DNA of 64,000 nt from Methanothermobacter sp. GTDB taxonomy: Archaea > Methanobacteriota > Methanobacteria > Methanobacteriales > Methanothermobacteraceae. The DNA lies in the NCBI RefSeq assembly GCF_030055425.1, contig NZ_JASFYE010000006.1:1-64000 (forward strand). The letters are read 5' to 3'. Both the position numbers and the translations under genes were made by a program. The number at the start of each line of letters is the position of its first letter. Position 1 is the first letter of the stretch. Below are positions 19,124 to 20,723 of the stretch, piece by piece. The notes under the pieces are model-generated. The model was not told the origin of the DNA. It made no database searches and was given only the letters and a program-made list of their open reading frames with translations.

Positions 19124-19621
19124 CTAACGGCGGGATCTGTATCTCTTCTTCTTTATCTCTGAACCACATATCTCACATTCCCCAAACTGGTAGTCCTGAG
19201 GGTACACCCTCCTGCATCCGGTGCATATCTTCCTCCACTGATAGGTCTCCTTTATACCTGATGTGAGGACACTGCGGAACTCTATTCCAAGAATTCTGAG
19301 GGTGTTCTGTATTGTATAGTCATCGGTGACTACAGTTACCTCGCCCCTCTTTTTGAGTGAAACAGCAAGTCCTATAACCTCCCTGTCTGTACTGGAGAGC
19401 CTCATGGCATCCCCTGATCGAGTGGTGACTTCATCCACCTCCCTCATGCTCTCAGGGTCAGGTTCCATTATTCTGAGTCTGCCATCACTGAGTGCCCTCT
19501 CAAGGACCATGGCAGATTTGAAGTCCCTTATCTCATCTGTTACAGACTTCACAGTGTAGTTTTCAGTGCCCTCAGGTATGTATCCGTTTATGAATGCAGA
19601 TGCATCAAGAACCCTCTTCAT
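19124..19621 (-). CDS. nob1: rRNA maturation endonuclease Nob1
   Basis: Archaeal Nob1 cleaves the 3' end of pre-16S rRNA. The 165-residue protein has a PIN domain (acidic residues in [32 protein letters not shown] and VTDDYTIQN) and a C-terminal zinc ribbon (CTGCRRVYP and CEICGSE). I use ATG 19621, which gives the usual MKRVLDAS start; a GTG at 19630 is possible. It is the first gene of the long minus-strand run toward nifB, 28 bases before the DUF2117 gene, so its promoter probably drives at least part of the marker genes. Confidence 0.88.
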
Positions 19622-19639
19622 TAAGACCACGTATTAATC

Positions 19640-19917
19640 AGGGATTATAATATAATAAGTTCCCATTTTTCAGTTTGGTGAAGCACGGTAATAAATTTAC
19701 CCTCGCATGGGGGAGTGCCGGGTTGGGGCTTTCCCTGTGGAAGAACCTCAGACACACCCCATCAGCTGCCCAGTGAATAATCGGGCAAGTGTAAAAAAGT
19801 ATTACCATGAATTTCTGTAAAGTCCATTAAAACAGCTATTTTCATGTTTAGATGGTTTAAAAACCCTTAAATGCGCTTAAAAGTCCTTGAGAACGGTTGA
19901 AGCAATCTAACGAAAAC
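19640..19917. other. non-coding spacer with a GC-rich, foldable core (19690-19790)
   Basis: There is no convincing open reading frame. The AT-rich spacer contains a GC-rich block in which nested pairings are possible: TGGGG 19724-19728 with CCCCA 19757-19761, an internal TTTCC-CTGT-GGAAG hairpin, then GCCC 19768-19771 with GGGC 19783-19786. Upstream, GGTAA-TAAAT-TTACC is a small hairpin. The pattern could be a second small RNA. I see no clear promoter or known RNA family signature (no RNase P core, no convincing C/D boxes). Confidence 0.3.
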
Positions 19918-19927
19918 TTTATAAATA
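19918..19927 (+). promoter_or_regulatory. TATA box for the candidate RNA at 19950
   Basis: TTTATAAATA, preceded by a purine-rich BRE-like GAAAAC, lies 22-32 bases before the start of a long RNA stem at 19950. This is exactly the spacing expected for an archaeal transcription start at the stem. A second AT-rich TATA-like motif (about 19938-19946) is less well placed. Confidence 0.6.
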
Positions 19928-19949
19928 GTGGTGTCAATATATAATAAAC

Positions 19950-20040
19950 GGGTAGGGTCCAGGACTTTTAAACTTATTCTGGTCTTTTAAATTGGAATTG
20001 AAACCGCCTCCAATCCAATATCAAACCCTACCCAGACCAA
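19950..20040 (+). ncRNA. candidate structured small RNA
   Basis: A non-coding stretch shows a perfect 9-base closing stem, GGGTAGGGT (19950-19958) with ACCCTACCC (20025-20033). Inside are two hairpins: CCAG 19959-19962 with CTGG 19979-19982, and ATTGGA 19991-19996 with TCCAAT 20009-20014. The loop of the second hairpin contains GCCTCC, complementary to Shine-Dalgarno sequences. A TATA box lies about 25 bases upstream, and T-rich tracts (AATTTTTATTACTTTTCT, from about 20050) downstream could terminate it. I recognise no known RNA family. The promoter, fold and terminator together make transcription likely. Confidence 0.6.
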
Positions 20041-20192
20041 ACCGCCATAAATTTTTATTACTTTTCTCTCCTTGTCAGAAACGTGGATATGCTCACTTTC
20101 GCTTACAGAAAAACCAAAAGACTTATAAATTGCACCCACAATAAATAGCATGTTACATCCACAGTTTATTATTAAGATACCGGTTGATTGAT

Positions 20193-20723
20193 ATGAAAAG
20201 TTCCAGCATGGAGGAGCATAGGAGATTGGCTCCGGAGGACATAATCTGCGGTGTCATCACCCTCAGTGATTCAAAATATGAGGAATTCAGAAAAACCGGT
20301 GAAATACCTGAAGGTGACCTATCAGGCAGGAAACTAATGGAGGCACTGTCTGAAAGTTACTCTGTTAAGGAATACAGGATAATACCTGATGACAGACATG
20401 AACTTCTATCTGCAGTTGATGATATGATAGATAAGGGTGCTGACGTTATATTTACCACCGGTGGCACAGGAATTGGAAGTAGAGACATAACAGTGGAGAC
20501 CCTAAGGGGTATTTTTGAAAAGGAACTGGATGGTTTCGGTGAGATATTCAGGCACCTTTCATTTAAAAAGCTGGGAGCAGGGGCGATACTCAGCAGGGCA
20601 ACGGCGGGTGTATACAGAAAAACACTGATATTTGCACTTCCCGGGTCACCGAACGCGGTGGAACTTGGAATTCAAATTGCTGTCCCTGAACTAGGTCACC
20701 TTGTTAAGCACCTAAGGGAATAA
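20193..20723 (+). CDS. moaB: MoaB/Mog-type molybdopterin-binding protein
   Basis: The 176-residue protein belongs to the MogA/MoaB family, which adenylylates molybdopterin before insertion of molybdenum or tungsten. The cofactor is needed by formylmethanofuran dehydrogenase and formate dehydrogenase. Seen: CGVITLSDSKYEEFRKTG, the binding loop FTTGGTGIGSRD, ATAGVYRKTLIFALPGSPNA. ATG 20193 is used; TTG 20184 and ATG 20208 are alternatives. The TATA box ACTTATAAAT (about 20121-20130) predicts a start near 20152. It stands alone between the small-RNA locus and the convergent pyrE. Confidence 0.82.
   Translation: MKSSSMEEHRRLAPEDIICGVITLSDSKYEEFRKTGEIPEGDLSGRKLMEALSESYSVKEYRIIPDDRHELLSAVDDMIDKGADVIFTTGGTGIGSRDITVETLRGIFEKELDGFGEIFRHLSFKKLGAGAILSRATAGVYRKTLIFALPGSPNAVELGIQIAVPELGHLVKHLRE

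Follow-up and report, generated by a model that had tools for sequence, protein, structure and literature searches.

The window analysed here is a stretch of 64,000 nucleotides, and the feature under study lies in its gap at 19631-20183, between a gene for a PIN-domain ribonuclease (Nob1-like; 19124-19630, minus strand; PF17146, E 2e-16) and a gene for a MoCF_biosynth protein (MoaB/MogA-like; 20193-20723, plus strand; PF00994, E 7e-30), whose start is either 20184 or 20193. Within this gap, a conserved RNA core of 87 nt was identified on the plus strand (19949-20035), and each of 29 genomes gave a single covariance model match to it (E 8e-22 to 1.4e-4). The transcript probably extends from ~19945 to ~20058, roughly 110 nt, its ends and its transcription being inferred without expression data. 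The promoter, recognized by sequence and conservation, consists of BRE-like purines and a TATA box (AACGAAAACTTTATAAATA, 19910-19928, plus strand), of which the TATA box itself, TTTATAAATA, occupies 19919-19928. ACGAAAACTTTATAAAT is unchanged in all eight genomes of the genus, while the DNA further upstream has diverged, and the distance from the TATA start to the closing stem P1 is 31-36 nt at 29/29 loci (at L049 and L051 the script picked a farther TATA box, and CTTTTTAAGTG was found by eye at 33 nt). T tracts at 20052-20065 on the plus strand (runs at 20052-20056 and 20062-20065) form a probable termination region, a function that is inferred, and a run of at least four Ts follows the core by 5-51 nt at every one of the 29 loci. 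Possession of its own promoter and terminator, as expected of an independent gene, is thus met by TATA spacing and T tracts at 29 loci, on sequence evidence only. The moaB-like gene lies downstream on the same strand at all 29 loci, at a spacing of 34 to 721 nt, and the Nob1-like gene lies upstream on the opposite strand at 28. A separate TATA-like box (CTTATAAAT, 20122-20130, plus strand), probably the moaB-like gene's own promoter, argues against the RNA being a leader of that gene.

Several other features of the window were observed. The string AAAAAGTATTAC (19794-19805) is unchanged in the eight genus genomes amid a variable spacer and is possibly part of a divergent nob1 promoter. The stretch 19685-19815 looks well folded by eye, but a second RNA there was rejected, the fold z being only -1.1 and the region being unconserved in the genus. 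At 271-729 on the minus strand, a tRNA-Ser (GCT) gene adjoins the archaeal SRP RNA gene.

When the DNA of 60 relatives was searched, 8/8 genus genomes matched, and further families of the order gave weaker matches. With a covariance model (R1), exactly one copy was then detected in each of 29 genomes out of the order's 151, covering 12 of 19 genera and three families, and a second model run on 152 genomes of the phylum returned the same 29 genomes; that set adds only one genome from beyond the order, and no further RNA matches were obtained. The RNA was not matched in a phage collection. In Rfam 15, no family reached its gathering score in the gap, and none matched 19600-20220 up to E 5; C/D or H/ACA guide RNAs likewise had no Rfam match, and no boxes were evident, the latter judged by eye only. 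The gap therefore contains a conserved, previously uncatalogued RNA gene that has been kept for a very long time among methane-making archaea, its transcription being inferred.

The secondary structure comprises three helices. The closing stem P1 is formed by GGGTAGGG (19950-19957) and CCCTACCC (20026-20033), with 98% of cells paired and changes on both sides at 5/8 pairs in the model alignment; in this genus a ninth pair, T19958-A20025, is added. P2 is a short helix of GAC (19963-19965) and GTC (19982-19984; columns 15-17/36-38), whose three pairs are supported by column pair 17-36, which is C-G in 12 sequences and U-A in eight. P3 pairs ATTGG-A-ATTG (19991-20000) with CAATCCAAT (20011-20019), with 92% of cells paired and changes on both sides at 2/9 pairs. 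All of these arms are on the plus strand. The whole structure scores above 500/500 shuffles and every slid version. Since the model alignment was structure-fitted, it is biased towards the structure; compensatory changes are also readable in the raw sequences (GGGTATGG/CCATACCC and GAGTAGAG/CTCTACTC). As a single sequence, the RNA folds only slightly better than expected by chance (z = -2.4; 6/200 shuffles as good), and thus folding alone could not carry the claim of an RNA gene, which is settled by conservation. The P3 loop, ACCGCCUCCAAUCC, is almost invariant across RNA copies and exposes the word CCGCCTCC, and CCGCCTC is present in 29/29 copies. The predicted seed for pairing with mRNA leaders, ACCGCCTCCAATCC (20003-20016, plus strand), runs from this loop into the P3 3' arm.

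A sequence-only reading of the window had proposed a new small RNA here, with a TATA box, a closing stem of nine bases, two internal hairpins, an exposed CCGCCTCC loop and downstream T tracts. The promoter box, stem, loop and T tracts are all present, the stem holding as eight pairs plus the ninth specific to this genus. The internal hairpins held only in part: the loop hairpin covaries, and the CCAG/CUGG hairpin, the first internal one given by energy folding, was rejected for lack of covariation, with the three-pair P2 supported as the alternative. The candidate itself is supported by its single-copy, order-wide presence, covarying stems, conserved promoter and lack of an Rfam family, and no transcript has been shown. 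That reading would have been refuted by stems without compensatory changes across relatives; such changes were found in P1 and P3.

The same reading had suggested that the loop's CCTCC could pair with ribosome sites. The exact 13-base complement of the loop, GGATTGGAGGCGG, occurs at exactly three sites per genome in all eight genus genomes. One site is the RNA, and the other two are leaders of unlinked genes whose products are exported, the same two genes in every species; a reversed control gave one site in the eight genomes. The product of gene A is exported and carries pseudomurein-binding repeats and a transglutaminase-like domain, and that of gene B is short, exported and Cys-rich, with no Pfam match above the cut-off. 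Surroundings of the leaders vary from species to species and also from A to B, whereas GGATTGGAGGCGGTAnAATT is constant. Orthologs of both genes in other genera, found by protein search, carry related leaders, and those of gene B in genus g8 also show TGGAGGCGG. The RNA thus shows what is expected of a trans-acting antisense sRNA that masks Shine-Dalgarno sequences, namely a conserved match to ribosome-binding sites in mRNAs of unlinked genes, and the suggested pairing has strong comparative support from conserved leaders that are complementary over the Shine-Dalgarno sequence; a regulatory effect is not shown. As a separate observation, gene B (L146:618-1106, plus strand) and its orthologs form an exported Cys-rich (CPFCG) family. 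Sites of a ten-base complement in family f3 were discarded, all lying within ORFs or being attributable to chance.

Scans with the patterns TGGAGGCGGTADAATT and BGGAGGCGRTADAATT extended this picture. The leader motif GGAGGCGGUAnAAUU stands at the starts of exported, mostly transglutaminase/pseudomurein-type proteins in 24/29 RNA-bearing genomes, with 79 sites in these genomes versus a single one among 122 RNA-less genomes (Fisher p ~6e-22, uncorrected for relatedness), and the sole RNA-less site, in G084, fronts no exported protein. The reversed pattern had no match in RNA-bearing genomes, and no exact leader was found in five of the latter. It should be mentioned that the pattern was modelled on RNA-bearing genomes and misses the variant of genus g5, so that the contrast of 24/29 with 1/122 is overstated. 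Nearly all inspected leader contexts are starts of exported proteins: 68/69 ORFs behind leaders have a hydrophobic stretch, and 8/10 target proteins checked have a transglutaminase-like domain (Transglut_core and PMBR domains were seen). The current genome has six such genes, i.e., A, B and those at loci L363-L366.

Some additional observations were made during these scans. An exported Lys/Tyr-rich protein with an AUU leader is conserved in the genus (L366:773-1303, minus strand; L369, L372 and L375), and its G000 copy lacks a Pfam match. Conserved hairpins of g8 genomes and G148 have, on one strand, TTGGAGGCGG within or close to the loop, and their opposite strand carries the sRNA seed CCGCCTCCAA (L254, L260, L263; L256, L258, L264; L252, L261; L246; each at about position 201 of the TTGGAGGCGG-reading strand); they might act as decoys of the sRNA or be related sRNAs that share its seed. 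The L256/L258/L264 hairpins overlap the end of an apparent rubrerythrin-like gene, with a weak model score (E ~0.06-0.1). Viral contigs scanned with the leader motif were not used, as their matches look like chance.

In target genes, AUU is located 7 nt past GGAGG and is followed by (K/S/T)R and the hydrophobic stretch. Because 37/69 ORFs offer no in-frame ATG, GTG or TTG upstream or ahead of the hydrophobic core, AUU is probably the start codon of these genes, an inference from sequence alone. Conservation of the motif columns is partly circular, as they belong to the search pattern; gene B in g8 and G038 and the A leaders in g8 and g11, found by protein search, are free of this bias. Apparent AUU starts were also noted in genomes without the RNA, at transglutaminase-type surface genes (L506, L507 and G019:C1:1303022, minus strand). 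The AUU habit is wider than the distribution of the RNA, as far as apparent starts can tell.

The duplexes between the loop and the six leaders of this genome have energies of -18 to -29 kcal/mol, versus about -12 with the anti-Shine-Dalgarno sequence, and 77 ordinary start regions paired with the loop as a control gave a median of -11.6 and a best value of -19.0. Energies of full-length sRNA duplexes were too permissive to discriminate, and loop-only energies were used instead. Because the core of the leader overlaps an ordinary Shine-Dalgarno sequence, a flank test was carried out, in which 63 leaders were paired with the loop of their own genome's RNA and the 15 upstream bases were shuffled as the control. 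The observed mean was -24.0 against -21.1 (sd 0.2) after shuffling, with 0/200 shuffles as good, and the extension of pairing by upstream bases was seen separately in families f1, f2 and f3. GGA stands just upstream of the core in 23 of these leaders (1.8 expected), and GGAUU, GGAUA or AUUGGACA at this place pairs with AAUCC(AAU) of the RNA. The flank test is our strongest single argument that RNA and leaders evolve together, with the reservation that related sequences are not independent. Intermolecular covariation was sought at the base before GGAGG in G049/G148 (RNA CCUCCG), where no clear matching change of the leader was found. Leaders have the form GGAGGCGG versus GGAGGUGA for an ordinary Shine-Dalgarno sequence, and the distinguishing C pairs with a G of the RNA and not with the anti-Shine-Dalgarno sequence in its generally known form. 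This C fits tuning of the leaders to the RNA and not to 16S rRNA.

The conserved RNA with its stems and promoter is established, as are the leaders that match it. As to function, we lean, by a modest margin, towards a trans-acting sRNA that masks the Shine-Dalgarno sequences of a cell-wall regulon; transcription, binding in the cell and repression are all inferred. In this model, the GC-rich P1 would hold the short helix and the P3 hairpin, whose loop would display ACCGCCUCC and pair with leaders of mRNAs for exported cell-wall proteins (the pseudomurein-binding/transglutaminase type and relatives). Pairing is predicted to cover GGAGGCGGU, which comprises the Shine-Dalgarno sequence with the bases that follow and precedes the apparent AUU start by 7 nt, and in several targets may reach the upstream GGAUU, GGAUA or AUUGGACA and would then open P3. 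With GGAGGCGGU covered and the Shine-Dalgarno sequence held by the RNA, the 30S subunit would be kept off and the target genes would be jointly repressed, which is the most likely direction. Repression could not be distinguished from activation, and it remains possible that the RNA activates its targets or licenses AUU initiation.

Genomes lacking the RNA complicate this model. In genus g5, GGAGGCGGTAAGATTAAG precedes a transglutaminase-type protein once per genome (G017, G019 and G028), and the RNA was not found in these three genomes; the g5 leaders are without the GGA extension that is present where the RNA exists. The nob1-pyrE interval of G019 (L535:1021-1528) lacks both moaB and the RNA, which suggests a joint deletion. 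In 800 kb (45%) of the G019 genome, we found no CCGCCTCC except the leader's complement and no model match. With a leader retained in the absence of the RNA, something other than the RNA may preserve part of the motif, and the g5 case might reflect an unseen RNA, a leftover leader, or a core partly kept for AUU initiation. Leaders of exported proteins in RNA-less genomes often differ, having GGAGGTAA with ATG or TTG. The genomes compared are related and hence not independent.

Four rival explanations were considered. The same RNA and leaders could instead serve to aid translation, the RNA enabling AUU initiation or displacing an inhibitory fold. AUU stands at the start position in nearly all target leaders, and AUU initiation alone should be weak; aIF1 reportedly destabilises initiation complexes on a non-AUG mRNA (PMC6237735). 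Against this, the seed lies over the Shine-Dalgarno sequence itself, an arrangement that normally keeps out the 30S subunit, and genomes in which no RNA was detected have AUU leaders as well. We regard this rival as unlikely. Also unlikely is that the RNA works via a protein, in a structural or sequestering role, with the leader match merely incidental and efficient AUU initiation being what preserves the leaders. In its favor, g5 retains the GGAGGCGGTAAGATT leader with the RNA missing from the locus and not found in 800 kb, but in three families the pairing is lengthened by upstream bases that play no part in start selection, and eight species retain the 13-base complement at two unlinked genes.

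A cis-acting, riboswitch-like leader of the moaB-like gene would explain why moaB always comes next after the RNA on the same strand, why both are missing from the G019 locus, and the spacing of only 34 nt at L057 (G045), where read-through is possible. Against this, the spacing elsewhere reaches 721 nt and includes T tracts and AT-rich DNA, the moaB-like gene is preceded by a TATA-like box of its own, Rfam, with the Moco motif included, gives no match, and the trans matches would be left unexplained. A Moco riboswitch or moaB leader was thus rejected on the T tracts, the trans targets and the absence of a fixed place in a 5' UTR, and this rival is very improbable. Finally, a chance fold in a spacer without any RNA gene could appeal to the fold energy alone; this is untenable because of the order-wide conservation and covariation, which refute it in practice and all but exclude it.

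A bolder reading, which is no more than possible, is that the sRNA and the AUU-start cell-wall genes form one dedicated translation-control system. If true, the sRNA would be an anti-Shine-Dalgarno mimic matched to GGAGGCGGUAnAAUU that decides whether AUU initiation occurs. Archaeal regulatory sRNAs with known targets are few, and in the open-access full-text literature searched we found no paper on an sRNA of this order; the RNA family, its regulon and the AUU link thus appear to be new. A study of pseudomurein genes tried phylogenetic footprinting for a conserved regulon, which was reported as failed (PMC11915815). The RNA described here offers a predicted regulon, a seed and clear mutations. 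Many such proteins may be mis-annotated at their starts or missed, given the apparent AUU starts, which would also provide a natural test of near-cognate initiation in archaea.

The RNA may be compared with several known systems. The Moco riboswitch (MOCO_RNA_motif) is likewise found upstream of a molybdenum-cofactor gene, whereas the RNA here has no Rfam match, variable spacing, its own promoter and T tracts, and trans targets. In Methanosarcina mazei, the trans-acting sRNA162 is reported to mask a ribosome-binding site via base pairing, and it has a three-stem-loop layout with a 39-nt linker and homologs reported only in two other Methanosarcina species (PMC3510493). Both are methanogen trans-acting sRNAs with masking of ribosome-binding sites, which is predicted in our case, but their structures and targets differ: sRNA162 pairs through its single-stranded linker, whereas the RNA here has a hairpin-loop seed, is order-wide, and has targets sharing one leader motif. 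In bacteria, sRNAs that mask Shine-Dalgarno sequences, such as those of Staphylococcus aureus, direct a C-rich loop seed against the G-rich Shine-Dalgarno sequences of many mRNAs. The RNA here resembles them in this respect; they are unrelated to it by sequence, and their targets normally start with AUG, GUG or UUG. The AUU start of Escherichia coli infC serves autoregulation by IF3 and involves no sRNA. Here, too, an AUU start may act as a regulatory device, but unlike infC, a whole set of genes for exported proteins shares both AUU and the leader.
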